Source: an uncultured Bacteroidota bacterium
GTDB lineage: Bacteria > Bacteroidota > Bacteroidia > Flavobacteriales > Flavobacteriaceae
Length of the DNA: 64,000 bases
Assembly: GCA_902626365.1 (NCBI GenBank)
Contig: CACOFE010000003.1
Coordinates: forward strand, 1 to 64,000
Reading direction: 5' to 3'
Shown here one piece after another: positions 22,008 through 45,605 of the stretch. Position numbers and translations under genes: made by a program. Numbering within the stretch: position 1 is the first letter of the stretch; every line of letters begins with the position of its first letter. The notes under the pieces were generated by a model. The model saw nothing but the letters and a program-made list of their open reading frames with translations. It was not told the DNA's origin and searched no databases.

Positions 22008-22463
22008 ATGAAGAAAATTCTTTTTACAATCGTTTTAGCAGCGCTTTTATTCAATTGTGAAACACCTGAAAAAAGTCAATACAATAAAAATGAAATAATC
22101 TTTGTAGTTGATATGAATTCAAATGAGGGTAAATCAGAAGATGATATTGCTGAGTTTTCTAAGTATTACACAGATGCTATTGACATGAATGAGCCCAACT
22201 CTCTTGGGTGGGGTTTTTACAATTCAGGCGATAAAGTAATTTTAATTGAAAGATACTTAGACGGAAATGCGATGATGCAGCATGGTAAAAATATTTCTGA
22301 GGGAGGACCACTAGAAACCCATTTTGCTAAATTCATGGAACATTTTACGATTAACAAAATAGATGTTTATGGCACTGCATCTGATGAATTAAAAGAATTT
22401 GTAAAACCTTTCGGGTTACCTTTCTATTTTCATCCTGATTTTGCAAAATTTAGCAGAAATTAA
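22008..22463 (+). CDS. Lipoprotein with ABM-like (dimeric alpha/beta barrel) fold
   Basis: 151 aa. Signal peptide with Cys17 (ALLFNCETP), probably a lipoprotein. The mature part has a ferredoxin-like beta-alpha-beta pattern (IIFVVDMNS, WGFYNSGDKVILIERYLDGNAMMQHGKN, FMEHFTINKIDVYG) that resembles antibiotic-biosynthesis monooxygenase-type proteins. Catalysis is not shown. The stop overlaps the start of the FGE gene (TAATG), so the two are likely translated together. Confidence 0.6.
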   Translation: MKKILFTIVLAALLFNCETPEKSQYNKNEIIFVVDMNSNEGKSEDDIAEFSKYYTDAIDMNEPNSLGWGFYNSGDKVILIERYLDGNAMMQHGKNISEGGPLETHFAKFMEHFTINKIDVYGTASDELKEFVKPFGLPFYFHPDFAKFSRN

Positions 22464-23515
22464 TGTATTACTTATCAAGATTTTTTTTCCTAATTTTTAC
22501 ATTAATTTTTTCTTGTGTTGATGCAACTAAAACCGTTGAGAGCTCATTCATTAATCCTGAAGGAATGATTTGGGTTGAGGGTAAATCTTACACAAAAGGT
22601 GCAAAGAATAATGACTCTTTTGCAATGATGAGGGAAAAACCATCCCACGAAGTTTACATTGATGGTTTTTTTATTGATGCAACTGAAGTTACAAATAATC
22701 AATTCGAAAAGTTTGTTAATGAAACGGGATATATTACAGTAGCTGAAAGGGAAATAGATTGGGAAGAAATGAAAAAAAATCTTCCAGTTGGAACACCAAA
22801 ACCTCACGACTCGATTTTACAGCCTGGTAGTTTAATATTTAATGATCAAATAAAAACCGTTGAGAATATGGAAAATTATTTTCAATGGTGGAGATGGCAA
22901 ACAGGTGCAAATTGGAAAGCGCCAAAAGGGCCAGGATCAAGCATTGAGAATAAGGGTAATTTTCCAGTTGTTCATATTGCATACGAAGATGCAATAGCCT
23001 ACTGTGATTGGGCTAACAGAAGATTACCCACTGAAGCTGAATGGGAATCAGCGGCTCAAGGAAATTATAAAAATGCCGTTTTTCCTTGGGGAGATGATGT
23101 AGATTTATTGAACTCAAATGCAAATACCTGGCAAGGTAATTTTCCTATTAAAAATGAATCAATTGATGGATATGAGATGGTTGCCCCAGTAAAATCTTTT
23201 CCTGCAAATAGCATTGGTATATTTGATATGGTTGGAAATGTTTGGGAGATTACAGACGATTTATTTAATGTCAATTACTATTCAGAAATAAGCACTGAAA
23301 CTGAACTAAAAAATCTCAAAGGCGCTAGTAGTTGCTACAACCCAAGCAACCCATACGAAATACAATATGTAATGAAAGGTGGATCGTTTTTATGTCATGA
23401 TTCTTATTGTGCAAGCTATAGAATTTCTGCAAGGATGGGAGTCAGTATAGATTCAGGCTCTGACCACACCGGATTTAGAACAGTTGCAACACCTGAAATG
23501 CTTCTAAATAAATAA
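22463..23515 (+). CDS. Formylglycine-generating enzyme (sulfatase-modifying factor), exported
   Basis: 350 aa. An N-terminal signal with FTLIFSC (Cys18) suggests export, probably as a lipoprotein. The SUMF1/FGE fold is shown by MIWVEGKSYTKGA, EVTNNQFEKFVNETGY, RLPTEAEWESAAQG, MVGNVWEITDD and GGSFLCHDSYC...SDHTGFR. Both active-site cysteines of true FGEs are present (~C311 and C316, spacing CHDSYC), unlike many FGE-like proteins that lack them. It would convert the Cys of sulfatase CxP/AxR motifs to formylglycine with O2 and copper. All four sulfatases in the window are Cys-type. It is the only maturase gene seen here. Confidence 0.85.
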   Translation: MYYLSRFFFLIFTLIFSCVDATKTVESSFINPEGMIWVEGKSYTKGAKNNDSFAMMREKPSHEVYIDGFFIDATEVTNNQFEKFVNETGYITVAEREIDWEEMKKNLPVGTPKPHDSILQPGSLIFNDQIKTVENMENYFQWWRWQTGANWKAPKGPGSSIENKGNFPVVHIAYEDAIAYCDWANRRLPTEAEWESAAQGNYKNAVFPWGDDVDLLNSNANTWQGNFPIKNESIDGYEMVAPVKSFPANSIGIFDMVGNVWEITDDLFNVNYYSEISTETELKNLKGASSCYNPSNPYEIQYVMKGGSFLCHDSYCASYRISARMGVSIDSGSDHTGFRTVATPEMLLNK

Positions 23516-23585
23516 CTCTTTTATTAAGCTTTAATACTCTATTTTTTTATATTTAGTATTGATAAAATAAACTAACTAATTTCAA

Positions 23586-25070
23586 ATGTATTATCTGGGT
23601 CTAGATGTTGGTAGTTCTTCTGTAAAGGCAGCTTTAGTTGAAGCAAATTCAGGCAAGAGTATTCTAAGTGTACATGAACCAAAAAATGAAATGAGTATAA
23701 GCTCATTAAAAAATGACTGGGCAGAGCAAGATCCAAATGTCTGGTGGAAGTACACGTGCACTGCTATAAAAAGAGTTTATAAAGAATCTAATATTGATCC
23801 TAAAAAAATTATTTCGATTGGGATTTCATATCAAATGCACGGACTAGTAATAGTTGATAAAAATGGGGAGTCACTTAGAGATTCTATTATTTGGTGTGAT
23901 AGTAGAGCGGTCAATATTGGAAATGATGCTTATGAAAAGTTGGGTGAGGATAAGTGTATGTCACATCTGCTAAATTCACCTGGAAACTTTACGGCATCAA
24001 AGTTAAAATGGGTAAAAGAAAATGAACCTGAGGTCTATGAAAAAATATATAAATATATGTTGCCTGGAGATTTTATCGCATATAAACTAACTGGTGAAAT
24101 TAACACAACAAGAAATGGTTTATCTGAAGGAATAATTTGGGATTATAAAAACAATGAAATCGCAAATTGGTTGCTAGACTTCTATGGTATTAATCCCAAT
24201 CTAACTCCTGATTTAGTTGACAACTTTACGAATCAAGGAGCTACCAATTCGAAATCATCTGAAGAAACTGGATTAAATATTGGAATTCCAATTACCTACA
24301 GAGCTGGCGATCAGCCAAACAATGCCCTTGCTTTAAATGTTTTTGATAATGGTGAAGTAGCAGCATCAGGCGGAACTTCAGGGGTTATTTATTCAATTAC
24401 AAACGATATTAACTCTAAGGAACCGTCTCGAATAAATCATTTTGCTCATGTTAATTATAATGATAACAACAAATCCATTGGAAAATTACTATGTATTAAT
24501 GGAGCAGGCATACAGTACAGATGGCTTAGAAATCATAGTGTTGGCAAATCATATGAAAAGATGAATGAAGCAGCATCAAGTATTCCAGTTGGGTCTGAAG
24601 GAATTTCGGTTATACCATTTGGTAATGGAGCTGAAAGAATGTTAAATAATAAAAATATAGGAACACATATATGTAACATTAATTTGAATCAACATAGCCA
24701 TGGTCATTTATACAGATCATCATTAGAGGGAATTGCTTTCTCTTTTATGTACGGAATGGAAATTTTAAAAAATGACAATGCGTTAATCAATGTGGTTAGG
24801 ACTGGTAATGATAATTTATTTAGATCTAAAATTTTTGCAAATACTGTTGCTACCTTAATAGGTCATGAAATTGAAATCTATAATACAACTGGTGCGTTTG
24901 GTGCTGCCAGAGCATCAGGAATTATGAATGATAATTTGGATTCATTTAGAAAAAAAATAACTAAAAACGATCACGTAATGACATTTTTACCACTTAAGAA
25001 TAGATCTGAATATGAAGATGCATATTCAAGATGGAAAGAAGATTTACAAGGAATATTAAAAAACAAATAA
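23586..25070 (+). CDS. xylB: Xylulokinase
   Basis: 494 aa, FGGY kinase. N-terminal [13 protein letters not shown] is the ATPase phosphate-binding loop. [12 protein letters not shown] and IIWCDSRA match the sugar-binding region of xylulokinases (QMHG), and [11 protein letters not shown] and AFGAARASG the second ATPase lobe. It phosphorylates D-xylulose to xylulose-5-phosphate. It is followed by xylA at 7 bp, and the 70 bp before it are the only sizeable gap in the block, so a promoter there is likely although I find no exact TAnnTTTG box. Confidence 0.93.
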
Positions 25071-25077
25071 TATAATT

Positions 25078-26391
25078 ATGAGTAAAGAATATTATAAGGG
25101 AATAGAAAAAATTCAATACGAGGGTGCTGACTCAGACAACCCTCTTGCTTTTAAATATTATGATCCTGGTAAGGTAGTTGCTGGAAAAACAATGAAAGAA
25201 CATTTCAAATTTGCAATTGCTTATTGGCATTCATTCTGTGGGGTTGGATCTGATCCTTTTGGACCAGGAACATTGAACTTTGAATGGGATAAAAATCCTG
25301 ACCCGATTAAGGCTGCAAAAGATAAAGCTGATGCTGCATTTGAATTTATAGGCAAAATGGGATTTGATTATTTCTGTTTCCACGATTTTGATTTAGTCAG
25401 GGAAGCTACAACGTTTTCAGAATCAGAAAAAAGACTTGAAACAATAGTTGACTACATAAAAAATAAAAAAGAGGAAAGTGGAATTAAGCTTCTTTGGGGA
25501 ACAGCAAACTGTTTTTCAAACCCAAGATATATGAATGGGGCAGCTACCAATCCAAATTTTAACGTAGTTGCTCATGCTGGTGCTCAGGTAAAATTAGCCT
25601 TAGATGCAACAATTGCTTTAGGTGGAGAAAATTATGTGTTCTGGGGTGGAAGAGAAGGCTACATGTCTTTGCTAAATACTGACATGGGAAGGGAACTTGA
25701 TCACATGGCAAGGTTTTTAACCATGGCTAAAGATTATGCTAGATCTCAAGGATTCAAAGGAACTTTTTTCATTGAACCAAAACCAATGGAGCCAATGAAG
25801 CATCAATATGATTTTGACTCTGCAACTGCAATTGGATTTCTTAAAGAATATGGACTTGATAAAGACTTTAAACTAAATATTGAAGTTAATCATGCAACCC
25901 TTGCGCAGCATACTATGCAACACGAGCTTGCTGTAGCTGCAAAAGCAGGGATGCTTGGAAGTATTGATGCCAATAGAGGTGACTACCAAAATGGCTGGGA
26001 TACTGACCAATTTCCAAATAATGTTTTTGAAACAACTGAAGCAATGTTAGTATTCCTTCAAGCTGGTGGACTTCAAGGCGGAGGAATAAACTTTGATGCT
26101 AAAATCAGAAGAAACTCTACAGATATTGAGGATATATTTTATGCACATATTGGAGGTGCAGATACTTTTGCGCGTGCACTAATTGCAGCTGATAAAATTA
26201 TGACATCATCATCCTATTCTGATCTAAGAAAAAGAAGATATGAAACTTTTGATAGCGGTAAAGGAAAGGACTTTGAAAATGGAAAATTGGAATTGAATGA
26301 TTTGTATAACATTGCTAAAGATGCAAACGAAATAAATCTCGAAAGTGGAAAGCAGGAGTTATTTGAAAATATTTTGAACCAGTATTTATAA
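25078..26391 (+). CDS. xylA: Xylose isomerase
   Basis: 437 aa, the usual length of the larger class II xylose isomerases. Active-site motifs are present: FCFHDFDL (catalytic His), [48 protein letters not shown] and SIDANRGD (metal ligands). It converts D-xylose to D-xylulose in the cytoplasm. It lies between xylB and a symporter with gaps of 7 and 6 bp. Confidence 0.96.
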
Positions 26392-26397
26392 TATATT

Positions 26398-28050
26398 TTG
26401 ACAACAGTATTAGAGGGTTTAGATTGGATTGTCTTAGGAATATATTTTCTTGCACTGATTCTTGTTGCAGTTTGGGTTGTTTTACAAAAAAATAAAAATA
26501 CAGAAGACTATTTTCTGGCCGGAAGAAATGTTGGGTGGTTTGTAATTGGTGCTTCAATTTTTGCTTCTAATATTGGGTCAGAGCATGTAGTCGGTCTTGC
26601 CGGAACCGGATTTGAATCTGGAACTCCTATGGCTCATTACGAACTTCATGCATGGATAGTCTTGTTATTGGGTTGGTTGTTTTTACCATTTTATATTAGG
26701 AGCGGAGCTTTTACAATGCCTGAGTTTTTAGAGAAACGATTTGATTCAAAATCAAGATGGTTTTTATCTCTTTTTTCTCTAATTGCATATGTATTAACAA
26801 AAGTTTCCGTTACGATATACGCAGGTGGAATAGTTGTTTCTGAATTGCTAGGAATACCCTTTTGGTACGGAGCTATTGGAGTAGTAGTTTTTACTGGAAT
26901 ATATACTGTGATTGGAGGAATGAAAGCTGTAATTTATACCGAAACTCTACAGGCTATTATTCTTATTCTAGGGTCAATAATAATTACTTATCTTGGGTTA
27001 CAAGAAGTCGGTGGATGGGTTGAATTAAGAAACACCGTTGTTGCTGCAAGCCCTGATCATTTTAACATGTGGAGACCAATGTCAGATCCTGATTTTCCAT
27101 GGACTGGATTATTATTTGGTGGGACAATCGTAGGTGTTTGGTATTGGTGTACAGATCAATATATTGTTCAAAGGACCCTTGCTGCCAACAATATTAAAAT
27201 TGGAAGACGTGGTGCTATTTTTGGAGCATATTTAAAACTATTGCCTATATTCATTTTCTTGATACCTGGAATTATTGCATTTGCATTATCAATTCAAAAT
27301 CCAGAAATGTTTTCTGTTGAAAAAGCGGATAGAGCCTTCCCGATGCTTGTTAAAACTTTACTTCCTGTTGGGCTCAAAGGCTTAGTTGCTGGAGGTCTTA
27401 TGGCAGCACTTATGAGCTCACTTGCATCAGTATTTAATTCATGCTCAACGATATTTACAATCGATATTTACAAAAAATTAAAACCTAATGAATCAGAGAA
27501 AAAATTATTAAGTATTGGTAAGCTGGCTACTACTGTAATAGTAATTCTTGGAATAATTTGGATTCCTATTATGGAAAAAATCGGTGGTGGTGTTATGTAT
27601 CAGTATCTTCAAAATGTTCAATCCTATATTGCCCCACCAGTAGCTGCTGTTTTCATTTTAGGTATTCTTTGGAAAAGGGTTAATTCAAAAGCAGCTATAA
27701 CAACTCTGATGGCTGGTTTAATTCTATTAATTATGAGGCTTAGTTCAGAAATTTATTTTCAGCCTGAAATATCATCAGATACAATAGTTGATAGTTATAT
27801 GTTTGTTTTTGCCACAATTAATTTCTCACATATGGCAATACTGATGTTTATTTTTTCAATTCTATTGTGTGTAAGTGTGACGCTTTCTACGACTGAACCC
27901 GAATATAGTAAAATTGTAGGTTTATCATTTGGAACATTAACAAAGGAGCAGAAGTTAGAAAATAAAAATAGCTATGAAAAAGTAGATTTGGTTTTATCAG
28001 TGATTCTAGTAATCATAGTTGTTGCAATTTTAAACTATTTTACTGGCTAA
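26398..28050 (+). CDS. Sodium/solute symporter (SSS), probable xylose importer
   Basis: 550 aa with about 14 membrane helices. The NTEDYFLAGRNVGWFVIGASIF and ASNIGSEHVVGLAGTG segments are those of SGLT-like SSS transporters. Start is TTG, 6 bp after xylA; no ATG lies near. Position in the operon with xylA and xylB suggests xylose as substrate; the family also carries glucose, galactose and others. It abuts the esterase gene tail to tail with no gap. Confidence 0.88.
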   Translation: MTTVLEGLDWIVLGIYFLALILVAVWVVLQKNKNTEDYFLAGRNVGWFVIGASIFASNIGSEHVVGLAGTGFESGTPMAHYELHAWIVLLLGWLFLPFYIRSGAFTMPEFLEKRFDSKSRWFLSLFSLIAYVLTKVSVTIYAGGIVVSELLGIPFWYGAIGVVVFTGIYTVIGGMKAVIYTETLQAIILILGSIIITYLGLQEVGGWVELRNTVVAASPDHFNMWRPMSDPDFPWTGLLFGGTIVGVWYWCTDQYIVQRTLAANNIKIGRRGAIFGAYLKLLPIFIFLIPGIIAFALSIQNPEMFSVEKADRAFPMLVKTLLPVGLKGLVAGGLMAALMSSLASVFNSCSTIFTIDIYKKLKPNESEKKLLSIGKLATTVIVILGIIWIPIMEKIGGGVMYQYLQNVQSYIAPPVAAVFILGILWKRVNSKAAITTLMAGLILLIMRLSSEIYFQPEISSDTIVDSYMFVFATINFSHMAILMFIFSILLCVSVTLSTTEPEYSKIVGLSFGTLTKEQKLENKNSYEKVDLVLSVILVIIVVAILNYFTG

Positions 28051-28889: not shown

Positions 28890-30794
28890 TTACTTTCTAA
28901 GTTCATTCATTTTTTCTCTTTCTAATTCACTGATTCTTTCAAATTGTTTCTTTGTGAATTTACTCAAAAGTTGTTGCGAAATCATTGAAAAAGTTTCTTT
29001 ATAAATCGCTTCAATTTCATCATTTGAAAGACCCTTGGAAGATGTAAGCTCATTGTTTCTAGCATACTTATCATAAAGAGTTTCTTGTAAAAATTTAGCT
29101 TGATTTTTATTCATCTGCATTTCAGCAGCTACATATCTACTTATGACTTTTGATCGTTCATTTGCCCATTTATTATTTGGTGCTGCTTTTATATATTGTT
29201 TGGTTACTTTATTATTGACTGGCTCAGGCTCATTAACAATTTGGGTGTTAAAAAATCTAGCTGCTAAAGTTTGAAATGTAGTCTTGATTCTTTGTTGTTC
29301 AGGGTAATTAATTATATTGTCCGTTTCAAGAGGGTCATTGTCATAATCATATAATTCTTCAGCAAATATGTCTTCAATATATATAGGTTCAGTACTCTTT
29401 TTATTTTTTACCCATACGGTATATCGATGTCTTTTAGTTCTAAAACTATAGCCCATAATATTTCCATGTCTTGGATATTGACTGACGGCAAATATTTTTG
29501 AAGTTGTTTGTTCTCCCATTATTTGAGACCTTAAACTTATTCCGTCAAGAACCTCTGGAATTTCTAATTCTGCCAAGTCACAAAGTGTCGGAAATACATC
29601 GATAAATTCAGTTGGAGAATTTACACTTACTGTTTTTTTAATTCTTGGATCTTTTATTAATAATGGTGATCTAGTTGATTGCTCAAAATTTGTGTGTTTA
29701 GTCCACATACTATGATCACCTAGGTGAAAACCATGATCACCCCATAAAACGATAATTGTATTTTTATCTAAGCCTTTTTCTTTTAATTTGGCAATAACTT
29801 TACCTATTTGTGCATCAATATAACTTGTTGCTGCATAATAACCATGAATTAATTTTCTTTGAATATCATCTGGGAGAATTAAAAGACCTTCATCATTTTC
29901 TATATATTCAATTCCAGGAGCTTTATATGTATTTATTTCCCATCCACCTTTATAAGCAATATCAACGGGGTTTTTTGACTTGGTTTGAAACTCTGCTAAT
30001 TGAACTTCTTCCTCTTTATATAAATTCCAATATTTAGTAGGCGCATTAAAAGGCAAGTGAGGTCTTAAAAAACCAACGGCTAGAAAAAATGGTTTTGTAG
30101 TATCCATTTGGTCCAATAATTCAACTGCTCTATTTGCGATTGCACCATCCATATACGCACCGTCAGGAACATCAGCATTTTCATACGGAGGCTTAAATCT
30201 ATCTGACTCGTACTTATTCAAGTTATTAACCCCTTTATCAATAGCCTCTTGTCTAAGCTTTGCTCTTACAGCTCTATTCTCTTTGCCTTGATAAAAGCCC
30301 CCAGATGGAAAACTATATCCATCGGAAAATGTTAATTGATTTTGAGTTACAAAAGGAACAGACCATGACCTTCTGTCTCTCCCACCGTCAACCGCTCTTG
30401 GGTCATAAATTTTTCCAACGCCAATTGTCTGATATCCGTTATTTTTAAAATGTTCAGGTAGTGTAAGAACCTCTGGGTTCACATCTCTCATCTTTGTTTT
30501 CAGATCCCAAACTTTTGTTTTATCAGGTCTTAGGCCAGTCAAAAAGCTGACCCTTGAAGCAGCGCAAATAGCAAGTTGATTTTGATTATTTAAAAAAACT
30601 GTTGCATCTTTTGAAAGTTCATCAATATTTGGTGTTACTGCAAACTCATCACCAAAGCTGCCAATACTGGGTTTTAAATCATCTACTGAAATAAATAAAA
30701 TATTTGGTTTCTGATTTTCTTGAGAATAGAAAGTAGTTAAAGTTGTTAGAAAAAAGCAAAAGACTAATGATTTTAAGAAATTCATAGCATTCAT
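28890..30794 (-). CDS. Sulfatase (iduronate-2-sulfatase-like) with C-terminal helical extension
   Basis: 634 aa; signal peptide to about TTFYSQ (the Met at residue 4 is an equally good start). Metal ligands are in FISVDDLKP and the formylglycine site is CAASR (Cys77), followed by SFLTGLRPDKTK. LPEHFKNNGYQTIGVGKIY, FFLAVGFLRPHLPF and WGDHGFHLGDHSMWTKHTNFEQ place it with S1_7-type iduronate-2-sulfatase-like enzymes. The catalytic domain ends near residue 500. The last ~110 residues form an unusual helical tail containing two Gln-bearing repeats (NKNQAKFLQE and FTKKQFERI), reminiscent of Spy/LTxxQ proteins. Probably periplasmic. Confidence 0.88.
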   Translation of the reverse strand: MNAMNFLKSLVFCFFLTTLTTFYSQENQKPNILFISVDDLKPSIGSFGDEFAVTPNIDELSKDATVFLNNQNQLAICAASRVSFLTGLRPDKTKVWDLKTKMRDVNPEVLTLPEHFKNNGYQTIGVGKIYDPRAVDGGRDRRSWSVPFVTQNQLTFSDGYSFPSGGFYQGKENRAVRAKLRQEAIDKGVNNLNKYESDRFKPPYENADVPDGAYMDGAIANRAVELLDQMDTTKPFFLAVGFLRPHLPFNAPTKYWNLYKEEEVQLAEFQTKSKNPVDIAYKGGWEINTYKAPGIEYIENDEGLLILPDDIQRKLIHGYYAATSYIDAQIGKVIAKLKEKGLDKNTIIVLWGDHGFHLGDHSMWTKHTNFEQSTRSPLLIKDPRIKKTVSVNSPTEFIDVFPTLCDLAELEIPEVLDGISLRSQIMGEQTTSKIFAVSQYPRHGNIMGYSFRTKRHRYTVWVKNKKSTEPIYIEDIFAEELYDYDNDPLETDNIINYPEQQRIKTTFQTLAARFFNTQIVNEPEPVNNKVTKQYIKAAPNNKWANERSKVISRYVAAEMQMNKNQAKFLQETLYDKYARNNELTSSKGLSNDEIEAIYKETFSMISQQLLSKFTKKQFERISELEREKMNELRK

Positions 30795-41100: not shown

Positions 41101-42540
41101 TTAATTTGATTGATTTTGAAAAGGGTCATCATTTACATAATTTCTCATTTCTTCTAATTTAATACTATATTTTTTAACTAACTCCTTATTTTCGGGTAGT
41201 TTCGAAATATCTATATTTTGCTTTTTATCGTTTTTCATGTCATAAAGCATATTTCCTAAATATTTTTCTCCTATTACAAATTCAGTGTATGAATAGTTTT
41301 TGTCTATAACTGCTTCACCCTGCTTATATCTTGTATAAATCTCATCTTTTAAAATAGTTTTTGGGTTTTTAAGAACTGGTGTTAAGCTTTGTCCCTGTAT
41401 GTAATTTGGTGGTTTTATTCCCGCAAGTTCACAAAGCGTTGGATATATATCAACTAACTCTGTGAAAGAATCTGAATTGTCTTTCGCGCTATATTTTGGA
41501 GAAGATATAATCAACGGAATTTGGACTGCTTCGTAAAAAGTACTATGCTTACACCAGAAGCCATGTTCACCCAAGAAGTATCCGTGATCACTCCATAAAA
41601 TTATTGTTGTATTTTCTCTTAATCCAGCTTCTTCTAATCCTTCAATTAATTTTCCAATCATTGCATCCATGTATGAAACACTGGCATAATAACCATGAAT
41701 CAAATCCTTTGATAATTCATCGTCAAGTAGACCTTCTGCGGGAATTCCAAGATAATTTTTTCTTAATTCAGCTGAATTATGCTGTGCTTCAATTGCTATG
41801 TCAGGTGAATTTAAGGGTTGATATAAGTTGTCTGCTAATTTAATTTTATCATGGTCATACATATCCCAATATTTTTTGGGTTGTATAAAAGGAAGGTGTG
41901 GAGAAACATATCCGATAGCCATAAAAAAAGGTTTTCCATTGCTACTAAACTCATTAAATTTTTTAATGGCTTTAAGTGTAATTTTTCCATCATTATACGC
42001 ATAGTCATCTACATCTGGATATTCAACAATGGGATTTTTCTTTCCGTACTCACCTGTTTCGGCATTGTCTCTTAATCTAATAGATTCGGGATCTTGAAAA
42101 TCAGCCTGATCAGCACCTCCATCTTTCTCAGTCCAATGTTGTGCAAAGTCATCGTTATGATGATAAATTTTTCCATATGAAATAGTTTCATATCCGTTCT
42201 CCTTAAAAATCTGATTTAGTGGAATTGCATGTGGAGCATCAACTGATGCTCTTGTAGAGAAGTCATTGAACCTTTTCTCACTAGGTCTAACACCGGTCAT
42301 AATACTTGCTCTGCTTGCGCCACATACTGCTATGTTTGTAAAAGCATTATTAAATTGTACACCCTCCGATGCTAACTTATCCATGTAAGGGGTAATCATT
42401 GTTTCCTCTTCATAATTATATGAGTTCATGGTTGGTCTTAAGTCATCAATTGAAATAAAAAGTATATTGTGTTTTTGTTCAACTTTATTATTGCATGAAA
42501 TTAGAAATACTCCTAAAATGATTACTAAAATTTTTTTCAT
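41101..42540 (-). CDS. Sulfatase lipoprotein (iduronate-2-sulfatase-like)
   Basis: 479 aa. Lipobox LISC (Cys16). Metal site FISIDDLRP, formylglycine site CGASR (Cys73) followed by ASIMTGVRPSEKR. FFMAIGYVSPHLPF and WSDHGYFLGEHGFWCKH resemble S1_7-type enzymes, like the sulfatase at 28.9-30.8 kb but without the helical tail. It would remove sulfate from polysaccharide fragments, anchored outside the cytoplasm. 3 bp from the beta-helix gene and 7 bp from the next sulfatase. Confidence 0.9.
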   Translation of the reverse strand: MKKILVIILGVFLISCNNKVEQKHNILFISIDDLRPTMNSYNYEEETMITPYMDKLASEGVQFNNAFTNIAVCGASRASIMTGVRPSEKRFNDFSTRASVDAPHAIPLNQIFKENGYETISYGKIYHHNDDFAQHWTEKDGGADQADFQDPESIRLRDNAETGEYGKKNPIVEYPDVDDYAYNDGKITLKAIKKFNEFSSNGKPFFMAIGYVSPHLPFIQPKKYWDMYDHDKIKLADNLYQPLNSPDIAIEAQHNSAELRKNYLGIPAEGLLDDELSKDLIHGYYASVSYMDAMIGKLIEGLEEAGLRENTTIILWSDHGYFLGEHGFWCKHSTFYEAVQIPLIISSPKYSAKDNSDSFTELVDIYPTLCELAGIKPPNYIQGQSLTPVLKNPKTILKDEIYTRYKQGEAVIDKNYSYTEFVIGEKYLGNMLYDMKNDKKQNIDISKLPENKELVKKYSIKLEEMRNYVNDDPFQNQSN

Positions 42541-42547
42541 TATAAAT

Positions 42548-44203
42548 TTAGTTTGATGTTATTTCTGAAGCCTTATATCCGATCCTAATTGCTCTTGCAA
42601 CAATTTTTTGTTTATCTCCGATTGTAATCGGTGTGTGATATAAGCTCCAACTATTGGTTCCTATTTTTTCATCTATTTGATAGCCTATTGATGCTCCATT
42701 TGTAATTGAAGTCAATTCATATAATCCGTCATTCCTAATTTTAAACTCAACATTTTCTGTCTTTGGTTGAATCATGTTTGGCCAAAATGATTCAACTAAT
42801 TTATTCTCAGGAATAAAGCCCTGATCATTAATTTCTTTCTGCCAATTTTCTAAAGCAATTCTAAAGTTGTTTATCCTGTCCGCATGTTTTGGGTCATCGA
42901 TAATATTATTAACCTCATAAGGATCATTAAGTAAATCATAAAACTCCTCTAAAGGCTTTGTTTTCATAAATATGTATTTTGCATCTCCATCCAACATATC
43001 TAAACTGTCCATTTGAATAAGTTTAGAGTTCATTGTAATTCGCTCTCTATATTTATTACGATAAATCAAAGGTTGCTCTGGCATAAAGTTTTTGATATAG
43101 ACATATCTTCCATCTAAAACAGACCTTTGCATATCAGTACTTTCATCGAATCGATCTGCTGTACCAAATGCATATTGTCTAGGACTATCTTCATATATTC
43201 CAGCTATAGCCTTGCCATCATAATGCTTAGGAGGCTCAATATTTAAAAGAGATAGTACAGTAGGACCTAGATCCATTAACGAAACTATTCTTTCATCAAC
43301 TTTACCGGCATCCATTTTATTTGGGTATCTAATAATTAAAGGGACATTTAGCCCACTGTTTCCAACAGCTCTTTTTTGTCTAAGTAAATTTCCTCCATGG
43401 TCGCTCCAAAACATAATAATAGTGTTTTCCAACAACCCATCCTCTTCTAGTTGGCTAATCAGCTCTCCAACTTTTTTATCCATTGCTTCAATATTAGAAT
43501 ACTTTCTTGCAATATCAGTTCTAACTTCTGGAATGTCTGGGAAATATGATGGAATTATAATATCCTCTGGGCTAACCGTTAGAGGTTGATTGCTTCTTTC
43601 CCATATTCTAGATTCGTGTGTTAGTAAAGTATTCCATACATAAAAAAATGGCTTATCTTTTGGTGCGTCCCTATAACTTACTGTTGACGAAACCTCATCC
43701 CAAGCTGTAAATGGGGCGTTGAATTGATAATCACATTTAAAGTTATTGGCGCAATAATATCCATTAGTTCTCAGAATCTCAGTAAATGGTTTGACATAAG
43801 TTGGAGGGACAACTTCGTATTCAGGAATATTTTTTCCTTCTTTATCAATAACACCAATATTTTTTCTGTATGATACCTGTTCAGGAGTTTTATAATTATG
43901 ATAATCTCCTGTCCTCATATTATGAGCTCCAAGCCTAGCTGAATACATTCCGGTTATAACAGAAAATCGACTTGGTGCACATACTCCAGCAGTTGAATAG
44001 GCATTAGTATATCTAACCCCCTCAGATGCAAGCTTATCAAGGTTTGGTGTTTTGATTATGTCATTTCCATATGACCCCAAAATAGGTCCCATATCTTCAC
44101 AGCTTATCCATACAATGTTAAGAGGCTTTTCGAGAACTTTTAAATTATTAGAGCATGAATAAAAAAGCAACAAAAAGGATAATATGAGTTTGATTTTATA
44201 CAT
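42548..44203 (-). CDS. Sulfatase lipoprotein (heparan N-sulfatase-like, S1_8 type)
   Basis: I place the start at the Met at 44203, not 44248: it begins a lipoprotein signal (ILSFLLLFYSC, Cys17) and lies 1 bp after the stop of the upstream sulfatase. This gives 551 aa. The metal site is WISCEDMGP, the modification site CAPSR (Cys75). WSDHGGNLLRQKRAVGNSG and the C-terminal module (GASIGYQIDE...ARAIRIGYKASE) are typical of sulfamidase-like enzymes with a chitobiase C-terminal-like domain. The sugar substrate cannot be read from sequence; the locus suggests sulfated xylan. Confidence 0.88.
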   Translation of the reverse strand: MYKIKLILSFLLLFYSCSNNLKVLEKPLNIVWISCEDMGPILGSYGNDIIKTPNLDKLASEGVRYTNAYSTAGVCAPSRFSVITGMYSARLGAHNMRTGDYHNYKTPEQVSYRKNIGVIDKEGKNIPEYEVVPPTYVKPFTEILRTNGYYCANNFKCDYQFNAPFTAWDEVSSTVSYRDAPKDKPFFYVWNTLLTHESRIWERSNQPLTVSPEDIIIPSYFPDIPEVRTDIARKYSNIEAMDKKVGELISQLEEDGLLENTIIMFWSDHGGNLLRQKRAVGNSGLNVPLIIRYPNKMDAGKVDERIVSLMDLGPTVLSLLNIEPPKHYDGKAIAGIYEDSPRQYAFGTADRFDESTDMQRSVLDGRYVYIKNFMPEQPLIYRNKYRERITMNSKLIQMDSLDMLDGDAKYIFMKTKPLEEFYDLLNDPYEVNNIIDDPKHADRINNFRIALENWQKEINDQGFIPENKLVESFWPNMIQPKTENVEFKIRNDGLYELTSITNGASIGYQIDEKIGTNSWSLYHTPITIGDKQKIVARAIRIGYKASEITSN

Positions 44204-44204
44204 G

Positions 44205-45605
44205 CTAATAATGGAGTTTAACATAATCGTCATCATTAAGTTTACCAATTAAATCATCTGGAACGTTGTTCCATTTAGACTTTTTATCCAAAGGATGAAG
44301 AGTAGGCTTCAATACTGAAATTGGATTGTCTAAAAGAAAATCCTCTTGACTTTTCATCCAATTTTCAAGAGCAACTGACAGCCTGTTTCTTATTTGTTTG
44401 TATTTAGGATTGTCTATTAGATTTACTTTTTGATATGGATCTTTTTCCAAGTCATATAATTCTTCATAAGGAACATTTGGAAACGATTCAGCTCCAATTT
44501 TAGCAAATTCATTTATAACTGGGTTGTTGCCTAAGTTTGAATTAACAACTTCAACAGAATTAAAGTTTCTTATTAGCTTATACCTGTTACCTCTTATCAT
44601 TCTTGATGGAAATATTTTACATTCTCTTATGTTTTGTCTTGTCGAAACCCCAAAAACATAATCATGAATTTTCATCTTACTTCCATTTAAAGTCTCAAGA
44701 AAACTCTTTCCATCTATTTCGCTTGGAATTTCAGTATTGGAAACTTCTAATATAGTGGGCAAAACATCAACAAGGGTCAACAATGTTTCAGATTTAGTGT
44801 TTGGCTTAATTTTTCCAGGCCACCTAACAATAAATGGCACTCGCAATCCCTGCTCTTTTAAACTCCACTTGCCACTTAAGCCGTGGTCTGATGCATAAAT
44901 AAACATTGTATTTTCTTTAAGGCCATAATTATCAACCATATTTAAAACTTGCCCTAGTTGATCATTATCATCTTGAATATTTTGATAATAACCTGGCTTG
45001 TGATTTCCTATATAAGATGGGTCGTATGGTAATTTAAAAATATCTGCTTTACTATAATTTGATGTTTGTGGATATGGGCCATGTGGATAATCTGATGCAA
45101 TAATTAAACAAAAAGGGTTGTTTACATTTTTTAGGTAATCATCAATTTGGTCAAGAGGTAAGTACCTATTATTAATTTTTGGAAAATAATGAGTCCAGTC
45201 AAATACTTTGTTTGGTTTAACATGGCTTTTTCCTGCTAAAACTACTTCATAACCTGATTCCTTTAATAATGATGTGATGCTTTTAATATCAGGTTTAACA
45301 CCAATATGATTAGCCATACATCCGTTTTTCACAGGATACATTCCTGTAAAAATTTGAGATCTACTAGGGGCGCATATTGCCTGACCTGTGTAAAAGTTTG
45401 AAAACTTCATGCCTTGGCTAGCAAGAAGATCAGCATTACTCGTTTGAACATTTGGGTTTCCATACACCCCATAATCTAGTAAATCCTGATCATCAGAAAG
45501 ATAAAAAACTATGTTAGGTGTTTTTGGTTCTTGCTGAGCATAAAAGGGGTTGAAATACAATAAAGATATTAGGAGAATATAATAAGTAAGTCTGTTTTTT
45601 CTCAT
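44205..45605 (-). CDS. Secreted sulfatase (S1_8-like)
   Basis: 466 aa with a signal peptide (to about PFYAQ) and no lipobox. Metal site FYLSDDQD, modification site CAPSR (Cys78) followed by SQIFTGMYPVKNG. YASDHGLSGKWSLKEQGLRVPFIVRWPG is conserved. It is related to heparan-sulfamidase-like sulfatases but lacks the C-terminal module of its neighbour. The ATG overlaps the GH30 stop (ATGA), so translation of the two is probably coupled. Confidence 0.9.
   Translation of the reverse strand: MRKNRLTYYILLISLLYFNPFYAQQEPKTPNIVFYLSDDQDLLDYGVYGNPNVQTSNADLLASQGMKFSNFYTGQAICAPSRSQIFTGMYPVKNGCMANHIGVKPDIKSITSLLKESGYEVVLAGKSHVKPNKVFDWTHYFPKINNRYLPLDQIDDYLKNVNNPFCLIIASDYPHGPYPQTSNYSKADIFKLPYDPSYIGNHKPGYYQNIQDDNDQLGQVLNMVDNYGLKENTMFIYASDHGLSGKWSLKEQGLRVPFIVRWPGKIKPNTKSETLLTLVDVLPTILEVSNTEIPSEIDGKSFLETLNGSKMKIHDYVFGVSTRQNIRECKIFPSRMIRGNRYKLIRNFNSVEVVNSNLGNNPVINEFAKIGAESFPNVPYEELYDLEKDPYQKVNLIDNPKYKQIRNRLSVALENWMKSQEDFLLDNPISVLKPTLHPLDKKSKWNNVPDDLIGKLNDDDYVKLHY

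Follow-up and report, generated by a model that had tools for sequence, protein, structure and literature searches.

Where does a formylglycine-generating enzyme (FGE) act when it carries an export signal of its own, and does its place among xylose genes say anything about its function? Sulfated algal glycans are degraded to a large extent by marine Bacteroidota, whose sulfatases require formylglycine. The question is raised by an open reading frame (ORF) at positions 22463..23515 (+ strand) of the window, the whole 64-kb stretch of DNA analyzed here. From its PF03781 match, PDB matches and an AlphaFold (AF2) model, the ORF encodes a 350-amino-acid FGE that is predicted to be exported and lipid anchored.

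A Pfam profile search identified a single full-length FGE-sulfatase domain in this ORF (PF03781; 223 bits; E 7e-66; profile positions 3-254 of 255 covered). The closest solved structures by sequence in the PDB are those of the Thermomonospora curvata FGE (T. curvata; 6s07, with copper) and human FGE. The stretch GGSFLC311HDSYC316 aligns with GGSxxCHxSYC of both enzymes, bearing out the preliminary description, which had noted both catalytic cysteines; the CHDSYC motif (23393..23410, +) thus contains the predicted catalytic copper-binding pair, C311 and C316. Residues S308, C311, Y315 and C316 show no substitution in 51/51 aligned flavobacterial homologues. In addition, the AF2 model, built from 51 family sequences (pLDDT of 90.4), matches human FGE in Foldseek (TM of 0.89 by target length; E 8e-32), as well as copper-bound bacterial FGEs. 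By its domain, predicted fold and catalytic residues, the ORF is a true FGE, for which copper- and oxygen-dependent activity is predicted. Assignments as GldK or GldJ were rejected, as the NCBIfam equivalog scores equal 103.7 bits (cutoff of 350) and 43.4 bits (cutoff of 458.2), respectively. In the host genome assembly (1.3 Mb; 63 contigs; 68% complete), this is the only FGE with the Cys pair that was found, and the search proposed in the preliminary description for a second FGE or an anSME detected neither. Two further PF03781 proteins of this genome, in frames of 551 and 572 amino acids, are taken to be GldK/GldJ-type lipoproteins, based on their size and the matched region.

The N terminus of the FGE, MYYLSRFFFLIFTLIFSC-VDATK, resembles a signal peptide with a lipobox (I-F-S-C18; 22463..22516, +) ending at Cys18, as called by the simple hydropathy and lipobox-rule script used for export calls here. 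Cys18 is invariant in 51/51 aligned flavobacterial homologues; in the same alignment, identity in the other columns of residues 1-31 is at most 0.69 and mostly 0.2 to 0.4. Because the signal and lipobox sequence coincide with deep conservation of the lipid-bearing Cys, export of the FGE is well supported, and the secretion/lipoprotein signal noted in the preliminary description is confirmed at this level. Its remark that well-studied bacterial FGEs are cytoplasmic likewise agrees with the published account, in which prokaryotic FGE resides in the cytosol (PMC4505483).

The residues behind the lipobox bear on the membrane face. An acidic run after the lipid Cys defines the lipoprotein export signal (LES) (PMC5080379). 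No LES-type acidic run was found after Cys18 of the window FGE (CVDATK), and the mean number of acidic residues at positions +2 to +6 equals 0.7 in the FGEs and 0.69 in sulfatase lipoproteins, versus 2.5 in four SusD proteins. As the residues following Cys18 lack the LES acidic run of the SusD proteins, the sequence favors a lipid-anchored FGE that faces the periplasm, the same face as the sulfatase lipoproteins. As a separate observation, the N-terminal extensions of some other FGEs (L048, L057, L250, L251, L258 and L262) contain a sulfatase-motif-like C-x(1-3)-P-x-R, with the variants CGTPSR, CTPSR and CMQVPSR. This motif is possibly a pseudo-substrate; it is absent from the FGE of the window.

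Four PF00884 sulfatases were found in the 68% complete host genome, all located within the window at 28.9-45.6 kb, and each combines a Cys-type motif with an export-type N terminus. These presumed substrates, all on the - strand, comprise a Sec-exported sulfatase (CAASR; 28890..30794; PF00884, motif and N terminus), two lipoprotein-type sulfatases (CGASR; 41101..42540; PF00884, motif and N terminus; and CAPSR; 42548..44203; PF00884 and motif; longest ORF reaching 44248, from TTG) and a second Sec-exported sulfatase (CAPSR; 44205..45605; PF00884 and motif). The genes around the FGE are of a xylan type, encoding two GH10 enzymes, two GH43 enzymes, a GH3 enzyme, a GH59/GH-cc enzyme and an esterase-like hydrolase, and the same locus contains SusC/D-type proteins (named from sequence), XylA, XylB and a symporter. 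The preliminary description had stated that the FGE lies beside no sulfatase. Literally this holds, since the nearest sulfatase ORF begins 5.4 kb away, but it is misleading, as all four sulfatases found share the cluster of the FGE and lie at most 22 kb from it. Because the xylan-type locus of the FGE also contains all four sulfatases, a link between the FGE and the entire glycan pathway is a simpler reading than a coupling to xylose.

The FGE gene is directly preceded by an ORF for a 151-amino-acid putative lipoprotein (22008..22463, +), whose end shares 1 base with the FGE start (TAATG). This ORF has no match in Pfam and NCBIfam searches and lies ahead of the FGE in some close relatives but not in others. 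Downstream lie genes for a xylB-like FGGY carbohydrate kinase (23586..25070, +; PF00370/PF02782), a xylA-like xylose isomerase (25078..26391, +; PF01261) and an SSF-family sugar symporter (26398..28050, +; PF00474). Ten close relatives (L010-L017, L028 and L033) share the order FGE-xylB-xylA, with the symporter following xylA wherever the contig extends far enough. The gap between the FGE and xylB (23516..23585, +) measures 69-70 bp in all close relatives, and their alignment reveals an AT-rich block, CTCTATTTTTTTATATTTA, at 23537-23555. This block is identical in 10 sequences, one of which accompanies an FGE of just 67% identity, and occurs once in the window (the block itself) versus 0.5 expected copies, with no repeats elsewhere in the 64 kb. 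Promoter and terminator scans yielded chance-level outcomes; CTCTATTTTTTTATATTTA may be a separate xylB promoter. Outside the clade of the window FGE, no FGE-xylose linkage was seen, and a sulfatase directly adjoins the FGE in 11/46 loci. The placement of the FGE in a xylA/xylB block, as proposed earlier, therefore stands for the 10 close relatives and is absent in other Flavobacteriaceae, and coupling to xylose catabolism is not supported as a general property.

The FGE recurs among relatives, one example being the culturable Leeuwenhoekiella marinoflava (L019). At E <= 1e-40, it was detected in 51/121 sampled family genomes, nearly always as a single copy, and at least three PF00884 matches are present in 46 of the 51 genomes with an FGE versus 17 of the 70 without (Fisher P of ~1e-13, a nominal value, as the genomes are related and the comparison is phylogenetically confounded). 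No anSME (TIGR03942, E <= 1e-40) was found in the 121 genomes. All TIGR03942 matches fall below the cutoff, and the weak ones, at 19-42 bits, were rejected as anSMEs and taken as other radical-SAM proteins. In a phylum-wide sample, 48/396 Bacteroidota genomes contain an FGE, and 25 of the 27 newly fetched loci have a lipoprotein-like N terminus when judged by eye. A 97-row tree unites the lipoprotein FGEs in a single clade (57 rows) that requires one change (support of 89/45). For six flavobacterial rows with only a signal or TM call by the script, the lipoprotein label was assigned by eye, as their hydrophobic stretch ends in a Cys. The grouping of the lipoprotein FGEs recurs in 91% of bootstrap trees. 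The neighbors of this clade are exported FGEs of Planctomycetota and one delta-proteobacterial bin; the Pseudomonadota and Actinomycetota FGEs are mostly cytosolic. Because human FGE clusters with bacterial sequences of the cytosolic type in this tree, bacterial FGE export and export into the ER look like separate events.

Sulfatases encoded near FGEs tend to share their compartment. Based on script calls, 33/34 sulfatases near exported FGEs are exported, and among 12 near cytosolic FGEs, nine are not exported, two are Tat-like and one is Sec exported (Fisher P of 1.9e-6, phylogenetically confounded). Sec substrates cross the membrane unfolded and can hence be modified outside, whereas for cytosolic and Tat substrates modification has to occur inside; the pattern fits this logic. 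As five of the nine non-exported sulfatases come from Bradyrhizobium and the comparison includes two phylogenetically independent pairs only, the match between sulfatases and neighboring FGEs is suggestive, not proof.

Some relatives complicate the picture. Seventeen sulfatase-rich family genomes are without an intact FGE of the lipoprotein kind (G002, G014, G017, G019, G023, G025, G032, G040, G053, G067, G082, G083, G085, G087, G096, G110 and G120), and no anSME was found in these 17. In eight of them (G002, G017, G019, G032, G053, G083, G085 and G120), the sampled sulfatases (L189-L208) have Cys-type motifs and export-type N termini. Divergent FGEs were considered in the FGE-lacking genomes and rejected, as the proteins read are GldK/GldJ types or other FGE folds without the Cys pair. 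In G085, which keeps many sulfatases, the FGE (L120) is broken into pieces in different frames, representing either a pseudogene or an assembly error. Since FGE-lacking relatives keep exported Cys-type sulfatases where sampled and yielded no anSME, the family seems to have another way of maturing sulfatases, which could operate in the host of the window too. A third maturation system has been proposed for Escherichia coli (E. coli; Benjdia et al. 2007, as cited in PMC6189696).

Taken together, we consider it probable that the window encodes a Sec-exported, Cys18-anchored, copper- and oxygen-dependent FGE that faces the periplasm and matures Sec-exported Cys-type sulfatases; its periplasmic face, its activity and its timing relative to Sec are what we infer here. 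The enzyme would leave the cytoplasm by Sec and become lipid anchored via Cys18, most probably on the periplasmic side. In that compartment, using O2 and Cu(I) held by C311/C316, it would act on sulfatases newly arrived across the inner membrane by Sec and convert the Cys of their C-x-(P/A)-x-R motif before they fold. Its clients would be the four sulfatases of the xylan-type locus close by, all exported and of the Cys type, possibly joined by others encoded in the missing third of the host genome.

Three other readings have to be weighed against this periplasmic maturase. That the FGE functions in xylose catabolism, in one operon with xylA and xylB, is unlikely: the conserved FGE-xylB-xylA-symporter order and the constant gap length in the 10 close relatives speak for it, but the linkage is absent outside the clade and the invariant block in the gap may be a separate promoter. 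This reading is also compatible with a periplasmic maturase. As the link disappears outside the clade, where sulfatases often adjoin the FGE instead, the xylose "coupling" is best read as placement of the FGE inside a xylan-type locus, local to one clade.

The compartment itself could also be questioned, since the literature places characterized prokaryotic FGEs in the cytosol (PMC4505483) and Met35 offers a possible internal start that would omit the signal. The FGE might then act either within the cytoplasm or on the inner membrane face, before or during its own export, and the anchor would only place it later. A purely cytosolic role leaves the invariance of the lipid Cys unexplained, and export is nearly universal among the sulfatases beside exported FGEs, which makes this reading quite improbable. 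Bacteroidota do repurpose FGE-fold lipoproteins (PMC12421860), and the 17 sulfatase-rich relatives manage without a lipoprotein-type FGE, so the protein could have a nonenzymatic or different role, like GldK/GldJ/PorK, with the sulfatases matured by the route of those relatives. However, the Cys pair is missing from PorK-like proteins (PMC12421860), whereas the four catalytic positions are invariant here, and the FGE gene co-occurs with and adjoins sulfatase genes; we regard this reading as very improbable.

If the periplasmic maturase is correct, the conserved clade of lipid-anchored FGEs implies that sulfatases are matured outside the cytoplasm, after Sec, which would guide the expression of active sulfatases and localization work. 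In addition, the sulfatase-rich relatives in which neither an FGE nor an anSME was found provide defined genomes in which to seek the third system that has been put forward for E. coli (Benjdia et al. 2007, as cited in PMC6189696). A broader generalization can be offered tentatively, and we lean slightly against it: the periplasmic lipid-anchored FGE would be the standard aerobic route by which Bacteroidota mature Sec-exported sulfatases, a bacterial counterpart of the ER system with a separate origin, and FGE-lacking flavobacteria would use a third maturase. No description of an exported bacterial FGE was found in the open-access papers searched.

Compared to known systems, the FGE of the window belongs to a known enzyme family as a variant rather than as a new kind of enzyme, and represents a conserved exported, lipid-anchored type. 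The anSMEs likewise form formylglycine in sulfatases; however, they are oxygen-independent radical-SAM enzymes unrelated to FGE and were not found in the family sample. GldK, GldJ and PorK are also exported Bacteroidota lipoproteins with an FGE fold, but they are without the catalytic Cys pair and serve as structural parts of the T9SS and gliding machinery (PMC12421860). The FGEs of Streptomyces coelicolor (2q17/6muj) and T. curvata (6s07) share the family, catalytic residues and copper site; they differ in that prokaryotic FGE is described as cytosolic (PMC4505483), while the window FGE is predicted to be exported. Human FGE (SUMF1) has the same fold and the same CHxSYC copper pair, and it works after Sec translocation in an oxidizing compartment, the ER lumen, as the window FGE would do in its own setting. 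It differs in being soluble and ER retained, whereas the flavobacterial enzyme is predicted to be lipid anchored.
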